Assembly (NCBI RefSeq): GCF_027923385.1
Contig: NZ_BSEC01000001.1
Location: forward strand, 248,001-312,000
Direction of reading: 5' to 3'
DNA: 64,000 nucleotides
Source of the DNA: Methylocystis echinoides
GTDB taxonomy: Bacteria; Pseudomonadota; Alphaproteobacteria; Rhizobiales; Beijerinckiaceae
Positions 3,462 through 30,510 of this stretch are shown here, in pieces. Each line of letters begins with the position of its first letter. Within the stretch, counting starts at the first letter, position 1. The translations under genes and the position numbers were made by a program. The notes beneath the pieces were generated by a model that saw only the letters and a program-made list of their open reading frames with translations, ran no database searches and was not told the DNA's origin.

Positions 3462-4412
3462 CTACCACCCCTTCAGCATCTCCCGCGCTTTTGCGCTGTC
3501 GTCCTCCATCTGGGCGATCAGCGCCTCGACGCTGTCGAATTTCTCTTCGCCGCGGATGAAGCCGTGAAAGGCGACCTCGACCTCCTTGCCGTAGAGATCG
3601 CCCGAGAAATCGAAGACGAACACCTCGAGCAGCGGCGGGCCATTGTCGAAGGTCGGGCGACGGCCGAAATTGGCGACGCCGTCGCGCAGGACGCCGTCGA
3701 CCGCCATGGTCACGGCGTAAATGCCATGACGCAGCCGATTGGATGGATCGAGCGCGATATTGGCCGTGGGGAAGCCAAGCAGGCGGCCGCGCTTGTCGCC
3801 ATGGCGCACCAGGCCGCGCACGAAATAGGGATGGCCAAGCAGACGCCGGGCCAGCGCCACATCGCCCTTTTCCAGCGCCTCGCGCGTCGCCGTGGAGGAG
3901 ACGGCGTCGAGGCTCCCCTCCTCGTCCTGCGTGATGCGATCGACGATCTCGACCGCAAAGCCGAGACGCGCGCCTTCCGCGCGCAGAAAATCGGCGTCGC
4001 CGGCGCGGCCGGCGCCGAAGCGGAAATCATAGCCGGCGACCACCGCCGAAACGCCGAGCCGCCTGGCCAGAATTTCCTGCGTGAAATTCACCGCCGGCCG
4101 GGCGGCGAAATCGCGGTTGAACGAGAGGACGATCATGCCGTCGAGCCCGAGGCGGGCCGCCTGCGCCGCCTTGGCCTGCGGCGGGGTGAGACGGAAGATC
4201 ACCGGACGGCCGGCGAAAATATCGGCGGGATGCGGCTCGAAGGTGAGCAGCGCGCAGGGCTTGCCCAGCTTTTTCGCCAGCGCCTGGGCGCGCGCGACGA
4301 CGCCGCGGTGGCCGCGATGCAGCCCGTCGAAATTGCCGATGGCGACCACGGCGCCCTCGAGACCGGCGGGCGGCGCCTCAGGATCGCGGGCGACGATGAA
4401 GGGGGAGGCCAT
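3462..4412 (-). CDS. ribF: bifunctional riboflavin kinase / FAD synthetase
   Basis: Converts riboflavin to FMN and then FAD in the cytoplasm. The N-terminal FAD-synthetase nucleotidyltransferase domain carries AIGNFDGLHRGHR, the family HxGH-type site, and LLTFEPHP. The C-terminal flavokinase domain has GRLLGFPTANIAL and NFGRRPTFDNG. At 316 residues it has the usual length for the bifunctional enzyme. It lies downstream of the MaoC gene by 18 bases on the same strand. In related bacteria ribF typically precedes ileS, which fits the order here apart from the two intervening small genes. Confidence 0.95.
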   Translation of the reverse strand: MASPFIVARDPEAPPAGLEGAVVAIGNFDGLHRGHRGVVARAQALAKKLGKPCALLTFEPHPADIFAGRPVIFRLTPPQAKAAQAARLGLDGMIVLSFNRDFAARPAVNFTQEILARRLGVSAVVAGYDFRFGAGRAGDADFLRAEGARLGFAVEIVDRITQDEEGSLDAVSSTATREALEKGDVALARRLLGHPYFVRGLVRHGDKRGRLLGFPTANIALDPSNRLRHGIYAVTMAVDGVLRDGVANFGRRPTFDNGPPLLEVFVFDFSGDLYGKEVEVAFHGFIRGEEKFDSVEALIAQMEDDSAKAREMLKGW

Positions 4413-4430
4413 GGGAGAAGCCGCCGCGCG

Positions 4431-4907
4431 TCACGCCGTCGCCGGTTTCTCCACGGGCGCGGCGACGCGCGCGGCCTGTTCGCGCGAGGGAACCATCACC
4501 GTGGCCTCGCCGTCGAGCACCACCTTGCTGTCGACCAGGCACTCGCATTTGAGCTTGGCGCGGCGGCCTTTCTCGACGAGCTCGACCACTTCGACGACGA
4601 CGGTGATGACGTCGCCGATCTTCACCGGCGCGCGGAAATTCAGCGTCTGCGACAGATAGACCGCGCCCGGGCCCGGCAGATACATGCCGATGACGGTCGA
4701 GATCAGCGAGGCGGTGTAGAGGCCGTGCACGATGCGCTCGCCGAAGCGCGTCTTGGAGGCGAAATGATCCGAAAGATGGATCGGATTGCGGTCGCCCGAG
4801 AGATCGGCGAAGGCGATCACGTCATCGTCCATCACCGCCTTCATCAGCGTCTCGCGCATGCCGACGCTCAGATCTTCGAAATAATAGATTTTGAAGGGCG
4901 TCGACAT
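4431..4907 (-). CDS. MaoC-like hot-dog dehydratase
   Basis: (R)-specific enoyl-CoA hydratase-type protein of the MaoC hot-dog fold, cytoplasmic. The hydratase signature is visible as FADLSGDRNPIHLSDHFA with the catalytic Asp/His pair, followed by RIVHGLYTASLIS. The length of 158 residues is typical. I take the ATG at 4907 (MSTPFKIYYFEDL); a GTG at 4916 would add three residues and neither start has a clear ribosome-binding site. The neighbours ribF and the HAD gene are on the same strand, and this gene trio is common in rhizobia. The physiological substrate is unknown; fatty-acid or polyhydroxyalkanoate metabolism is only a family-level guess. Confidence 0.88.
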   Translation of the reverse strand: MSTPFKIYYFEDLSVGMRETLMKAVMDDDVIAFADLSGDRNPIHLSDHFASKTRFGERIVHGLYTASLISTVIGMYLPGPGAVYLSQTLNFRAPVKIGDVITVVVEVVELVEKGRRAKLKCECLVDSKVVLDGEATVMVPSREQAARVAAPVEKPATA

Positions 4908-4988
4908 GCGGGTCACCGGAACGTTGCGAGTAGGAAGACCAAGGGCGCCTTGCGCCCGTAAGGGGGCTTTAAGCCCGTCGGCCCCTTA

Positions 4989-5882
4989 TTACCAGAAAAT
5001 TGCGCGGGCCAAAGCGACGGGCCGCGCCCCGGCGACCGCGATCAGCCGCGCCAGCGCCGCCCCGTCGACGCCGGCGCCGCCCGGACGCAGCTCCTCGCCA
5101 TGCACGCCGTCCGTGATGAACACGCAGTCGAGCCCGGCCCGGCCGGCGCCGGCGAGATCCGTGAGGGCGCCATCGCCAATGGCCACGATGCGGGAGTCGG
5201 GCACCGGCGCGCCGGTCAACCGCGCGAGACGCGCGCGGGCGGCGTCGTAGATCGGCGCGTGCGGCTTGCCGAACATCAAGACGTCGCCGCCCATGGCGGC
5301 GTAGCGCTCGGCCAGCGCGCCGGCGCAGTAGACCACGTCGTCGCCAATGGCCACGACGATGTCGGGATTGGCGCAGAGCATGGTGAGGTCGCGCGCCTTC
5401 AGCGCCGCGAGCCGTTCGTCATAATCCTGCGGGATTTCGGCCTTCTCCTCGAAGAGCCCCGTGCAGACGACGTAATCCGCGGCCTCCGGCCCGACCTTGC
5501 GAAGCGGCGCGCCGAGACGGCGCGCGGCCTCCTCAAACAGGCCATTGTCGCGCGGCGGACCCAGATGATAGACGGCCTGCCCCTTGCGGGCGACCATGTC
5601 GGCGAGCGTCAGCTCGCCCGCCGAAACGAGATCGTCGAAGGCGTCTGCCGGCAGGCCAAGGCCGAGCAGCTGCCGGCGCACCTCGGCGTCGGGACGCGAG
5701 GCGTTGGTGACGAGCACGACCTTGCCGCCCCGGTCGCGGAACGTCTTCAGCGCCGCCGCCGCCTGCGGGAAATGCTTCTTGCCGTCGATCAGCACGCCCC
5801 AGACGTCGCAGAGGATCGCGTCATAGCGGCCGGCGAGATCGTGAAGACCGGCGATTTCGGGGACGCACGCGACTTCGCTCAA
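4989..5882 (-). CDS. HAD superfamily IIA hydrolase (TIGR01459/CECR5-like)
   Basis: A haloacid-dehalogenase-type phosphatase of subfamily IIA. Motif I is CDVWGVLIDG with the nucleophilic Asp, motif II is LVTNASRP, and motif IV is IAIGDGALTDLAGA. The start is inferred to be TTG at 5882: it overlaps the carbonic anhydrase stop in a TTGA arrangement, and GGAG lies about eight bases upstream within the preceding gene. No ATG or GTG is available nearby before the conserved IAGLHDLAGRYDAILCD region. This gives 297 residues, normal for the family. Overlap with the upstream gene suggests translational coupling. The phosphorylated substrate is not known. Confidence 0.88.
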   Translation of the reverse strand: MSEVACVPEIAGLHDLAGRYDAILCDVWGVLIDGKKHFPQAAAALKTFRDRGGKVVLVTNASRPDAEVRRQLLGLGLPADAFDDLVSAGELTLADMVARKGQAVYHLGPPRDNGLFEEAARRLGAPLRKVGPEAADYVVCTGLFEEKAEIPQDYDERLAALKARDLTMLCANPDIVVAIGDDVVYCAGALAERYAAMGGDVLMFGKPHAPIYDAARARLARLTGAPVPDSRIVAIGDGALTDLAGAGRAGLDCVFITDGVHGEELRPGGAGVDGAALARLIAVAGARPVALARAIFW

Positions 5883-15588: not shown

Positions 15589-16206
15589 TCACGTCATCAC
15601 CACGCCGAGACGGCGCAGCGCGTCGAGCAGCGGCAGGATCGGCAATCCCATGATCGTCCAGTGATCCCCCGAGACGCTCTCGAAAAGCTGCGCGCCGAGC
15701 CCCTCGACCTGATAGGCGCCGGCTGACGCCAGCGCGGCGTCTCCCATCGCATCGAGATAGGCCGCGATGAATTCGTCGCTCAAGGGGCGCATCGCCAGAT
15801 CGGCGTGGGCGAGCGTCTCGAACAGGATGGCGCCGTCTCGCACGAGCGCCAGAGCCGAGTGCAGACGGTGACGGCGCGCCGACAGAAAGCGCAGCAGCTC
15901 GGCGGCTTTTTCGCACGTTTCGGGCTTGCCGAAGAGGCGCGCGCCGCAGCTCGCCACCTGATCCGCGCCCAGCACCAGCCGCCCCGGCGCGGCGGCGGAG
16001 ACAGCCAGCGCCTTGGCGCGGGCGAGCGCGGCCGCGACGGCGTCGGGGCCGACGTCGCCAAGCGCTGATTCGATGGCCCGTTCGTCGACATCCGCCGGGC
16101 GGGCCTCGAAATGAAGGCCCGCCTGGGCGAGAACCTGACGCCGGCCGGCGCTTTTCGATGCGAGAATCAGCGGCGCGTCGGCGCGCCAGAAACAAGCCTG
16201 AGACAC
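15589..16206 (-). CDS. maf: Maf-like nucleoside triphosphate pyrophosphatase
   Basis: House-cleaning pyrophosphatase that hydrolyses non-canonical or m7G-type nucleoside triphosphates. Motifs visible: [18 protein letters not shown] at the N-terminus, [14 protein letters not shown], and [11 protein letters not shown], the position of the catalytic acidic residue. The 205-residue length is normal. Start is GTG at 16206 ([15 protein letters not shown]); a shorter start is not obvious. It is the first gene left of the proposed origin and is transcribed away from it. Confidence 0.9.
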
Positions 16207-16345
16207 GGCCTCATCTTTCCACAGCGGTGCTGACGATGCGGGAACAGCGGGGACAATTCATGCGGGCTGGACCCGACGCTGTCGACAGCTGGGCATATCC
16301 CCGGGAAGCTTTCAACAGGGAAACCACTGTCGCAAACGAAGCCGT

Positions 16346-16365
16346 GAATCCGCGACTCTTGACTC
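16346..16365. promoter_or_regulatory. cluster of CcrM-type GANTC sites
   Basis: GAATC at 16346, GACTC at 16354 and GACTC at 16361, with a fourth (GAATC) at 16479. GANTC is the target of the alphaproteobacterial cell-cycle methyltransferase CcrM. Three sites in 20 bases is far above random density. Confidence 0.6.
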
Positions 16366-16392
16366 ATACACATCAAACGACGCTGTTGTCCC

Positions 16393-16401
16393 TGTGGATA
16401 A
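16393..16401 (-). promoter_or_regulatory. DnaA box (perfect)
   Basis: TGTGGATAA, the exact complement of the consensus TTATCCACA bound by the initiator DnaA. Confidence 0.75.
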
Positions 16402-16491
16402 GATCCTGTAATGAATTGTATTCATTAAGATAAAGGCGTTTTCCGCGCTTTTCCGGCGCGAGCGCTGAAAACTGTCCCGAATCGTCAGGCT

Positions 16492-16500
16492 TGTGGATAG
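16492..16500 (-). promoter_or_regulatory. DnaA box (one mismatch)
   Basis: TGTGGATAG, same orientation as the perfect box, 99 bases further toward hemE. Confidence 0.55.
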
Positions 16501-16535
16501 AGGGCGAACGGATCGTAAGCACCCCGATCGGCTGG

Positions 16536-16550
16536 TTAATAAAAAGTTAA
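16536..16550. promoter_or_regulatory. CtrA box 1
   Basis: Perfect TTAA-N7-TTAA (spacer TAAAAAG), the binding sequence of the cell-cycle regulator CtrA, which represses initiation in Caulobacter. It lies about 100 bases before the hemE start. Confidence 0.65.
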
Positions 16551-16562
16551 TTCAGTTCTCTT

Positions 16563-16577
16563 TTAAAGAGATTTTAA
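16563..16577. promoter_or_regulatory. CtrA box 2
   Basis: Second perfect TTAA-N7-TTAA (spacer AGAGATT), 27 bases after the first. Together they lie on one AT-rich segment that could serve both origin and hemE promoter. Confidence 0.65.
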
Positions 16578-16649
16578 TTTTTGGCGCTTTCGCGCTACCT
16601 CCGGGTCTCGAGACCTGCGGTCACTGGCCAGCCTATCGGGAGACGTGCC

Positions 16650-17678
16650 TTGAGCGATGAGAAACGCCTGATTTCGGCCCTGCGCGGCAAAGCGCAGGAC
16701 ATTCCGCCGATGTGGCTGATGCGTCAGGCGGGACGCTATCTGCCCGAATATCGGGCGCTGCGTTCGGAGGCCCGGAGCTTTCTCGATTTCTGCTACACGC
16801 CCGCCATGGCGGCGGAAGTGACCCTGCAGCCGATCCGGCGCTTTCACTTCGACGCGGCGATCCTCTTCTCGGACATTCTCGTCATTCCCGACGCGATGGG
16901 CCAGACGGTTTCCTTCGAGACGGGCGAAGGCCCGAGGCTCGATCCCATCGAGACGCCGGAAGGCGTGGCGGCGCTCGGCCGCTTCGACATCGAGAAGCTT
17001 GCGCCGGTGTTCGAGACGATCGACCGGGTGAAAAGCGCGCTTCCCAAAGACGTCGCCTTCATCGGCTTTTGCGGCGCGCCCTGGACGGTCGCGAGCTACA
17101 TGATCGCCGGCAAGGGCACGCCGGATCAGGCGCCGGCGCGGCTTTTCGCCTTCCGGCACCACGACGCCTTCCAACAGCTCATCGACCGGCTCGTCGAAGC
17201 CTCCGTGGCCTATCTGCTCCGCCAGATCGACGCCGGCGTCGAGGTCGTGCAGATCTTCGACAGCTGGGCGGGCGTGCTGCCTGCCAATGAATTCGAGGCC
17301 TGGTGCGCCGCGCCCATCGCCCGCATGGTGACGATGCTGAAAGAGAAGCGGCCGGAGGTTCCGGTCATCGCTTTCGTGCGCGGCGCCGACGCCCATCTGC
17401 CCGGGCTGACCCGCCGGCTCGGCGCGGCCGGCTACGGGCTCGATACGGCGCTCGATCCGAAATGGGCGGTCGCGGAAACGGCGGCGACGGTCTGCCTGCA
17501 AGGCAATCTCGATCCGCTGGCGCTCATCGCGGGCGGCGCGGCGCTCGACCGGGAAGTCGATACGATTCTGGAGGCGTTCCGCGGCCGGCCGCATATTTTC
17601 AACCTCGGCCACGGCATTCTGCCCCAGACGCCAATCGAGCATGTCGAAAGGCTGGTCGCGCGGGTGCGGCGCGGTTAA
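16650..17678 (+). CDS. hemE: uroporphyrinogen decarboxylase
   Basis: Decarboxylates uroporphyrinogen III to coproporphyrinogen III in tetrapyrrole synthesis, cytoplasmic. Signatures PPMWLMRQAGRYLPEYRAL and GFCGAPWTVASYMIAGKG are intact. The start is taken as TTG at 16650 (LSDEKRLISALRG), with GGGAGA about seven bases upstream; this gives 342 residues, the usual length. A TTG at 16581 would place the start inside the AT-rich origin region and is less likely. It is the first gene right of the proposed origin and is followed by hemJ after 27 bases. Confidence 0.95.
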   Translation: MSDEKRLISALRGKAQDIPPMWLMRQAGRYLPEYRALRSEARSFLDFCYTPAMAAEVTLQPIRRFHFDAAILFSDILVIPDAMGQTVSFETGEGPRLDPIETPEGVAALGRFDIEKLAPVFETIDRVKSALPKDVAFIGFCGAPWTVASYMIAGKGTPDQAPARLFAFRHHDAFQQLIDRLVEASVAYLLRQIDAGVEVVQIFDSWAGVLPANEFEAWCAAPIARMVTMLKEKRPEVPVIAFVRGADAHLPGLTRRLGAAGYGLDTALDPKWAVAETAATVCLQGNLDPLALIAGGAALDREVDTILEAFRGRPHIFNLGHGILPQTPIEHVERLVARVRRG

Positions 17679-22475: not shown

Positions 22476-22491
22476 TGTTTCACGTGAAACA
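22476..22491. promoter_or_regulatory. parS: parS centromere site 1
   Basis: TGTTTCACGTGAAACA, a perfect 16-base palindrome identical to the ParB-binding consensus, in the gap before mnmG. Confidence 0.92.
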
Positions 22492-24369: not shown

Positions 24370-24996
24370 GTGACGCGCGCGCGCAGGCGCTCGAGCAGTT
24401 CCCCAGCCTGAAGCTGATCGCGCGGGAGCTGGCGATCTATGAAGATCTGCTGCGCCGCTGGCAGGCGAAGATCAATCTCGTCGCGCCCAACACGCTGGAT
24501 GAGGTCTGGCTGCGTCATTTCGCGGATTCGGCGCAGGTCGCGGCCGCCCTGCCGAAAGCGGTGCGATGGGCGGATATTGGCGCCGGCGCCGGCTTTCCCG
24601 GCCTGGTGACGGCGCTTCTCAACAAGACCCGGCCGGGCGGGCGCGTCCATCTGATCGAGAGTGACCAGCGCAAGGCCGCCTTTCTCCGTGCTGTTTCACG
24701 TGAAACAGACGCGGCTGTCACGGTCCATGCCGAGCGCATCGAAAAGGCGCTGCCTCCCCTCGCCGGCGAGATCGACGCCATCAGCGCCCGCGCCCTGGCT
24801 CCGCTCGATCGCCTGCTCGTCATGGTTAACCAACCTTTAAAAAACGGCGCAATAGCCGTGTTTTTGAAGGGCGCCGAGTGGCAGGACGAATTGACCGCCG
24901 CCCAAGGCGTCGGTAATTTCAGGCTCCAGACCATTCAAAGCCGCACCCATTCGCGCGCGAGATTGATCGTCGTCGATTCACCGTCAGAGGCAGATT

Positions 24997-25013
<17 letters not shown>
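24366..25013 (+). CDS. rsmG: 16S rRNA (guanine-527-N7)-methyltransferase RsmG (GidB)
   Basis: SAM-dependent methyltransferase that modifies G527 of 16S rRNA. Family blocks: [21 protein letters not shown], the SAM loop [16 protein letters not shown], and [19 protein letters not shown]. Length of 215 residues is standard. It starts with GTG overlapping the mnmG stop and its 3' end overlaps parA by 17 bases, so mnmG, rsmG and parA look like one transcription unit. A perfect parS site and a CtrA box lie inside this coding sequence. Confidence 0.95.
24692..24707. promoter_or_regulatory. parS: parS centromere site 2
   Basis: Second perfect TGTTTCACGTGAAACA, located within rsmG, about 2.2 kb from site 1 and 290 bases before parA. 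In frame it encodes VSRET, a stretch also found in RsmG proteins of other bacteria. Confidence 0.92.
24826..24840. promoter_or_regulatory. possible CtrA box within rsmG, upstream of parA
   Basis: Perfect TTAA-N7-TTAA (spacer CCAACCT) about 160 bases before the parA start. Followed by an A-rich run. Could mark an internal parAB promoter under cell-cycle control. Confidence 0.45.
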
Positions 25014-25818
<805 letters not shown>

Positions 25819-25839
25819 GTCGATCAAGGAGTAGATGTG

Positions 25840-26715
25840 ATGGCTGAAGAACCGCGCCGGCGGCTGGGCCGCGGCCTGGCCGCGCTTCTGGGCGACGCCG
25901 GGGAGGATGTGCAGGCGGAGCGCCCGCGCGGCCAGCGCAAGGTTCCGATCGAGTTCCTGCGGCCCAATCCGCGCAATCCGCGCAGCGCCTTCCGCGAGGA
26001 AGACCTCGCCGATCTCACCAATTCGATTCGCGAGAAGGGCATCATCCAGCCGATCGTCGTGCGCGCCATTCCGGGCGTCGCCGACGCCTATGAGATCATC
26101 GCCGGCGAAAGGCGCTGGCGCGCTGCGCAAGCGGCGGGGGTCGCCGATGTGCCGGTCGTGATCCACGAGGCGGACGATAAGGAAGCGCTCGAAATCGCCA
26201 TCATCGAGAACGTCCAGCGCGCCGATCTCAACGCCATCGAGGAAGCGAAGGGTTACGAGCGGCTCGGGACGGAGTTCGGCTATTCGCAGAGCGATGTGGC
26301 CAGGATCATCGGCAAGAGCCGTTCGCATGTCGCCAATACGCTGCGCCTGTTGAATTTGCCGGAAGCCGCCAAGGCGCTGGTGCGCGATGGGGCGATTTCG
26401 GCCGGCCATGCCCGCGCCCTGCTGGCGGTCGACAATCCGGAGGCCATCGCCCGCCGCATTGTCGCCGAAGGGTTGACGGTGCGCGACGTCGAGGCGCTGG
26501 GCCAGGCGCAGCAGGGAGAGAGCGGCGCCAAGGGCGCTTCGGCGGGCAAGAAGCCAAAGGCCGAGAAGGACGCCAACACCCGCGCGCTGGAAAAGACGCT
26601 TTGCGACGCGCTGGGAATGATGGTGGAGATCAATGGCCGGGGCGAACGGGGTGAAATCCGCATTCGCTACGAATCGCTCGATCAGCTCGACGCTGTTTGC
26701 CGACTGTTGGGATAG
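25840..26715 (+). CDS. parB: chromosome partitioning protein ParB (Spo0J)
   Basis: CTP-dependent DNA clamp that loads at parS. The N-terminal region carries RRRLGRGLAALLGD, likely the ParA-stimulating segment. The CTPase motif is EIIAGERRWRAAQAAG with NVQRADLNAIEEA, and the helix-turn-helix is SQSDVARIIGKSRSHVANTL. The C-terminal dimerisation domain is VEINGRGERGEIRIRYESL. Length of about 291 residues is normal. AAGGAG lies eight bases before the ATG at 25840; a GTG three bases earlier is in frame. It forms an operon with parA. Confidence 0.96.
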   Translation: MAEEPRRRLGRGLAALLGDAGEDVQAERPRGQRKVPIEFLRPNPRNPRSAFREEDLADLTNSIREKGIIQPIVVRAIPGVADAYEIIAGERRWRAAQAAGVADVPVVIHEADDKEALEIAIIENVQRADLNAIEEAKGYERLGTEFGYSQSDVARIIGKSRSHVANTLRLLNLPEAAKALVRDGAISAGHARALLAVDNPEAIARRIVAEGLTVRDVEALGQAQQGESGAKGASAGKKPKAEKDANTRALEKTLCDALGMMVEINGRGERGEIRIRYESLDQLDAVCRLLG

Positions 26716-30466: not shown

Positions 30467-30510
30467 TTGCCCCCTCCCCACCCCTCCCCCGCTGCGCGGG
30501 AGAGGGAGCA
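30467..30510. repeat. REP-like palindromic unit upstream of trpB
   Basis: CCCCTCCCCACCCCTCCCCC, then GCTGCGCGGGAGAGGG. This is the same unit type as in the ileS insertion (TTGGGGTGAGGGG spacer complement plus CCCTC / GAGGG arms), here in the short trpF-trpB gap. Confidence 0.65.

Follow-up and report, generated by a model that had tools for sequence, protein, structure and literature searches.

The origin of Caulobacter crescentus (Cori) lies next to hemE and combines DnaA boxes, an AT-rich region and TTAA-N7-TTAA (N7) CtrA sites near or overlapping the DnaA sites, according to the accounts in PMC1914354 and PMC4468827. Rickettsia/Wolbachia-type origins also adjoin hemE, in a gap of about 400 bp, and are reported to carry from 0 to 7 CtrA sites depending on species or strain (PMC1914354). 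In Hyphomicrobiales, the order that in NCBI taxonomy holds Methylocystis together with S. meliloti, B. abortus, Methylocella, Microvirga and Chelatococcus, the Sinorhizobium/Brucella-type origins share with the locus described here an origin gene cluster reported as common to Azorhizobium, Bradyrhizobium and Caulobacter (PMC2443382). Unlike our locus, the S. meliloti origin is reported to be without a CtrA motif and unbound by CtrA (PMC4433202), and in B. abortus CtrA is reported not to bind the origin (PMC2877005). Caulobacter offers an established case of CtrA at the origin (PMC4468827), and another was seen in Hyphomonas neptunium, a stalked budding alphaproteobacterium studied by ChIP with a CtrA peak adjoining the origin and the motif TTAA-N7-TTAAC (PMC7200025), whereas the Methylocystis case below is drawn from sequence alone. 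A sequence-only reading of this DNA had placed the organism outside the Caulobacter model; this was too strong, because reports of the origin cluster, of origins beside hemE and of CtrA/CcrM extend well past Caulobacter (PMC2443382, PMC1914354, PMC2877005), and the origin type and position are already known (PMC2443382, PMC1914354). CtrA-type boxes at the origin do exceed the published Hyphomicrobiales models, since S. meliloti and B. abortus were reported without CtrA there.

We analyzed a 64-kb window (C1:248001-312000) of a Methylocystis genome of 5.32 Mb in 10 contigs; positions are those of the window unless prefixed with the contig. The maf-hemE intergenic gap of 443 bp (16207..16649; C1:264207-264649) was taken as the candidate replication origin region on the basis of skew, KOPS, gene order and parABS. 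It is flanked by maf (15589..16206, minus strand; PF02545) and by hemE, encoding uroporphyrinogen decarboxylase (16650..17678 from a putative start codon, plus strand; PF01208), and the order of the genes scanned was exonuclease, coaE, maf, gap, hemE, a UPF0093 gene that we take to be hemJ, rho, mnmE, rsmG, parA and parB. The parA (24997..25818; AAA_31/ParA-type families) and parB genes (25837..26715; ParB_N, HTH_ParB, ParB_C) are both on the plus strand, as are two perfect parS sites (22476..22491 and 24692..24707) within about 10 kb of the gap, where 0.04 sites would be expected at ≤3 mismatches. The COG1806/DUF299 gene that forms the other origin flank in Caulobacter and Rickettsia was absent at the locus, with maf in its place. 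In Methylocapsa aurea, a Kinase-PPPase gene (PF03618, presumably the same family as DUF299; 3700-4989 of locus L048) lies between maf and hemE. The maf-hemE distance was 410-480 bp in 35 Methylocystis/Methylosinus-like loci and 1210-1986 bp in the other loci with maf found ("Methylosinus-like" is a label by hemE identity, and one locus so labeled, L041, shares coordinates with genome G034, classed in the window's genus).

Origin position was mapped by best two-switch fits over 60 sampled 20-kb stretches, with 300 permutations each for KOPS and GC skew. The fits for GC skew, KOPS and GC3 all started the right arm at stretch 280761; for GC skew and KOPS the switch fell between the stretches at C1:210571 and C1:280761, and their terminus estimates, 2.32 and 2.46 Mb, lay approximately opposite. 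The KOPS score was 159 against a permutation maximum of 103, and that of GC skew 0.73 against 0.69. The TA skew fit switched at 210571, and coding-strand bias gave no agreeing switch at the gap over the same 60 stretches. On a joined sequence of 441 kb, the minimum of cumulative GC skew (C1:260191-270191) spanned the gap and the KOPS minimum fell at 279409; GC3 skew disagreed there, with its minimum at C1:422092, and was not used for fine mapping. The skew signal at the gap is weak. KOPS outside a paired repeat were polar, with counts of 138 to 55 for the right arm against 38 to 88 for the left (1.5 Mb, with arms set from this gap). The paired repeat is a dispersed element of about 45 bases on C1 (window position 30472) with a CCCTCTCCCGC-GCGGGGGAGGG inverted repeat that places two KOPS 10 bases apart; 28 copies were counted in 1.5 Mb of chromosome, with an orientation that agrees in part with the replication arms (12 against 6 in one arm and 2 against 8 in the other).

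The hemE-type origin features present were a gap adjoining hemE in the origin cluster, DnaA boxes, an AT-rich stretch, parABS and a polarity switch. The chromosomal replication origin of this Methylocystis species is very probably the gap between maf and hemE. The placement of the origin next to hemE in the sequence-only reading is upheld by GC skew, KOPS, parABS and gene order. A dnaA-linked origin was rejected, as sampled KOPS and GC skew were without a sustained switch at dnaA, which lies at C1:2992184, about 1.48 Mb from the gap. By that distance this genome departs from the trend reported in a survey, in which dnaA is generally kept near ori in Rhizobiales (PMC8116508).

To describe the gap across the genus, 30 gaps were aligned, namely those of this genome and 29 relatives, drawn from 34 same-genus hemE matches of which 4 were left unaligned; the window's own locus (L001) and L032-L038, on the same contigs as other loci, were dropped as duplicates. 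From the maf side, the gap contains a weak DnaA-like box CTTTCCACA with two mismatches (16215..16223, plus strand), whose TCCACAG core at this end of the gap occurs in 25 of the 29 relatives; three clustered GANTC (CcrM) sites (16346..16365, starting at 16346, 16354 and 16361), a triple also present in two relatives (L008 and L009); and a perfect DnaA box TTATCCACA (16393..16401, minus strand), the sole perfect one in the window. A fourth GANTC site (16479..16483) is followed by a DnaA-like box CTATCCACA with one mismatch (16492..16500, minus strand). Two predicted N7 CtrA boxes, TTAATAAAAAGTTAA (16536..16550) and TTAAAGAGATTTTAA (16563..16577), both overlap an AT-rich stretch (16527..16586; 72-75% AT in 40-base windows) that is a probable unwinding element. 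These elements confirm the inventory of the earlier reading, which had listed one perfect and one near-perfect DnaA box, two perfect N7 boxes 27 bases apart and four GANTC sites with three clustered. The two perfect N7 boxes contrast with the five CtrA sites of Cori, and no convincing IHF site was found in the gap, the one single-mismatch match to an IHF consensus being scattered among the 13 relatives displayed. The third N7 box in the window, TTAACCAACCTTTAA (24826-24840), lies inside rsmG, upstream of parAB.

Enrichment was assessed with 5000 dinucleotide-preserving shuffles of the 443 bp. At least two N7 boxes occurred in 0 of 5000 shuffles, at least one in a fraction of 0.0046, a perfect DnaA box in 0.001, and three GANTC sites with starts spanning ≤15 bp in 0.0014. 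At least four GANTC sites were reached in 0.18 of shuffles, within chance, and the GANTC number alone is therefore unremarkable and was rejected as stand-alone evidence; across the genus, GANTC numbered 166 against 71 expected in 30 Methylocystis hemE loci, and 8 against 11 expected in five Methylosinus-like loci. Elsewhere on the chromosome (1.2 Mb sampled) we found neither a perfect DnaA box nor such a GANTC triple, and among TTAA-pair spacings in the sampled sequence N7 stood at 12, TTAA-N6-TTAA (N6) at 0 and the others at 0-5. Two of the window's three N7 sites are in the gap; genome-wide there are 39 in 5.32 Mb, with one other pair ≤50 bp apart (C1:720669/720713). N7 in the candidate origin exceeds chance, and the AT-rich composition of 16527-16586 favors TTAA.

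The corresponding trans-acting factors are encoded in the genome. CtrA was found on C1 near 1703623 (NF045991, 422 bits at a cut-off of 350); another candidate, L186, proved to be another regulator, ctrA having been located by motif in L183 and L136, and ctrA does not lie beside sciP in this genome. A CcrM-type methylase scored over the RAMA cut-off and matched the CcrM structure 6pbd at 1e-152; against the CcrM equivalog (NCBIfam) it scored 601.6, below the cut-off of 830. A DUF1153 (SciP-type) protein and DnaA are also encoded. The DnaA profile gave 22 further weak matches, many with identical scores, to frames of 284 or 333 amino acids on the chromosome and other contigs; these many-copied matches resemble the ATPase partner of IS21-type insertion sequences.

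The sequence-only reading had proposed conservation of the boxes in related genomes as a check, and its listed boxes fail that check: they are not kept, and a different CtrA-like element is conserved in the genus and lost here. The perfect DnaA box at 16393 occurs in none of the 29 relatives and is specific to this genome among the 30; 24 of 29 relatives have TCCACA on the opposite strand within the columns that correspond to 16375-16402. The 16536 box is TTAA-N7-TAAA, one base off, in the eight closest relatives (L003-L010), and counterparts of the 16563 box were seen as N7 in L008 and L009 and as N6 in L005. The conserved element is a composite, TGTGG-N8-TTAA-N6/7-TTAA, present at the origin in 25 of 29 aligned relatives (not in L011, L012, L013 and L017), which adjoins the DnaA core and ends more than 110 bases from hemE. 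Across 39 genus genomes, TGTGG-N6..14-TTAA-N6/7-TTAA matched 36 times, in 32 of the genomes, and the reversed pattern 11 times. By coordinates, 26 of the 36 lie within about 200 bp of hemE; two more (G213 and G214) are identical to these in sequence; and eight are elsewhere, including this genome's only match (C1:464222).

In this genome the composite frame reads TGTGG-ATAGAGGG-CGAA-CGGATC-GTAA (16492-16518). The DnaA half is kept, its TGTGG core (16492-16496) forming part of the one-mismatch box, and both TTAA halves are lost, leaving CGAA-CGGATC-GTAA (16505..16518, plus strand) as a degenerate relic of the TTAA-N6-TTAA half. A perfect N7 box (16536) stands 17 bases beyond the decayed composite, completed by a T at 16548, where every one of the 29 aligned relatives has A. 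By leave-one-out comparison of conserved columns across 16492-16519, 8 of 23 were changed in this genome and 0-3 of 20-22 in each of the eight closest relatives, and this genome is the outlier at the composite; outside 16491-16553 it differed at 17 of 135 columns and L010 at 45 of 139. Fisher's exact tests gave p = 0.043 for the composite (5/18 changed versus 8/88) and p = 0.0017 for 16491-16553 (9/31 versus 4/75), in both cases for a region chosen after looking. In Rickettsia/Wolbachia, of a different order and lifestyle, CtrA site number varies as described above, and in Methylocystis the turnover is visible at base level in one aligned box.

TTAA spacing was then compared upstream of hemE in wider samples: 67 of 68 loci from named relatives (one dropped for <300 bp of upstream sequence), a same-order draw of one genome per family (20 of 23 matches fetched, one cut by a contig end, 19 used; the order limits behind this draw may differ from NCBI's Hyphomicrobiales), and 68 other-order loci, taken from 126 genomes with matches outside the family of this genome, lower-identity ones being left out. 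N7 was present in 31 of the 67 loci from named relatives, against 0.7 expected. In the same-order draw it was present in 7 of the 19 other families (0.3 expected; N6 in 0 of 19), and in other orders in 4 of 68 loci (0.6 expected; shuffle maximum 4). N6 occurred in 25 of 30 Methylocystis (0.2 expected). Across 102 hemE-upstream loci, whose counts are not independent because the loci are related, N6 was found in 33, N7 in 39 and spacings of 0-5 and 8-12 in 0-8; N13, N14, N16 and N17 were found in 19, 8, 6 and 15, and are perhaps half-sites of neighboring boxes. Over 15 Methylocystis genomes, N7 totaled 358 and N6 105, N7 exceeding N6 in all 15, while reversed-pattern controls gave 433 (N7) and 510 (N6) and N7 exceeded its own reversed control in only 6 of 15, most clearly in this genome (39 versus 20). 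By these totals N7 is conspicuous beside N6 and the other TTAA spacings, and less so beside AATT pairs; N6 is not enriched, at 2-15 sites per genome. Methylocella and Microvirga are among the groups with N7 boxes upstream of hemE. Five Microvirga origins (L092, L098, L103, L104 and L108) show three successive TTAA, an N6 pair followed by an N7 pair with the middle TTAA in common, and one more N7 box roughly 60 bases farther along.

The origin position, box enrichment, conservation of the composite, its loss, and the ctrA and ccrM-type genes, all computed here, are together best explained, and in our judgment quite likely so, by a Methylocystis origin with DnaA assembly, a CtrA-imposed delay through TTAA pairs and CcrM/GANTC reporting. 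DnaA would assemble on few, mostly weak boxes and open the AT-rich stretch at 16527-16586 next to hemE. Paired TTAA half-sites next to or within the DnaA assembly zone would be occupied by CtrA~P, which would hinder the assembly and delay initiation, and the GANTC sites would let CcrM report whether the origin has already been copied. In the genus, the CtrA input would typically be the composite, with the TTAA-N6/7-TTAA pair 8 bases on from the DnaA core TGTGG; in this species, with the composite decayed, it would pass through two N7 boxes inside the AT-rich stretch, beside DnaA boxes that are nearer the consensus. Binding by DnaA and CtrA at the candidate origin, like repression and control by methylation, is predicted from these motifs, and a coupling of initiation to CtrA/CcrM would be expected with them.

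This could instead be a true origin in which the N7 boxes are by-products of the AT-rich element and the species escaped CtrA by losing the composite, a reading that we consider unlikely. Both boxes do lie within the 72-75% AT stretch, they are not perfect in most relatives while the conserved composite is specifically degraded here, and origins unbound by CtrA are reported for S. meliloti (PMC4433202) and B. abortus (PMC2877005); against it, the shuffles that preserve the dinucleotides of the gap never produced two N7 boxes, the base completing the 16536 box is T here and A in every aligned relative, and N7 is the genome's outstanding TTAA spacing. The genus-level site raises a different doubt. 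The N6 composite, the more frequent form in the genus and a further difference from Cori, may not be a CtrA site because N6 is not enriched genome-wide, and it could be bound by another protein, either another OmpR-type regulator or DnaA opening the AT element; the rarity of N6 (2-15 per genome in 15 genomes, none in 1.2 Mb here), unlike N7, speaks for this. L004, L006 and L012, however, carry N7 in place of N6 at about the composite position, and the five Microvirga origins overlap N6 and N7 pairs on one shared TTAA, which leaves a different binding protein a doubtful explanation. Because three relatives have N7 about there, CtrA may recognize the N6 composite as a site with altered spacing, and the TTAA pair that most relatives keep beside the DnaA core is probably a CtrA site.

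That the TTAA boxes serve hemE transcription, the 16563 box lying at a CtrA-type -35 for a GCTACC -10 at 16594, is improbable: the second TTAA does end at 16577, 16 bases before GCTACC, GCTAC is present in 24 of 29 aligned relatives and most CtrA-activated Caulobacter promoters are reported to have the site at -35 (PMC11264516), but the conserved composite lies >110 bases from hemE and adjoins the DnaA core, the -10 reported for the methanotroph Methylosinus sporium 5 is TATAHT, not GCTACC (PMC12403871), and a TTAA pair occurs at the 16563 place in only 3 of 29 aligned relatives.

In Methylosinus sporium 5, promoters have already been reported to carry TTAA-N7-TTAA as a CtrA-like motif (PMC12403871), and our searches of mostly open-access literature turned up no account of origin CtrA boxes in Methylocystis or Beijerinckiaceae. 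What appears new is that several families of the order have predicted N7 boxes at their hemE origins, that the genus has a composite and that this composite has turned over in this species. We tentatively suggest, at somewhat less than even confidence, that CtrA control of the origin is an old Hyphomicrobiales trait, lost in Sinorhizobium/Brucella and kept in Methylocystaceae and at least some Beijerinckiaceae, Microvirga and Chelatococcus; that Methylocystis uses a DnaA-TTAA-N6/7-TTAA composite for it; and that this species rewired it: the composite was lost, N7 boxes arose in the unwinding stretch, and the DnaA boxes became stronger. Direct CtrA control of initiation would be a lineage-variable trait if the CtrA boxes at the origins of related families are functional. 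If this is true, how such control is lost or moved could be tested directly in this methanotroph genus, with its 26 located composites and its one rewired species.
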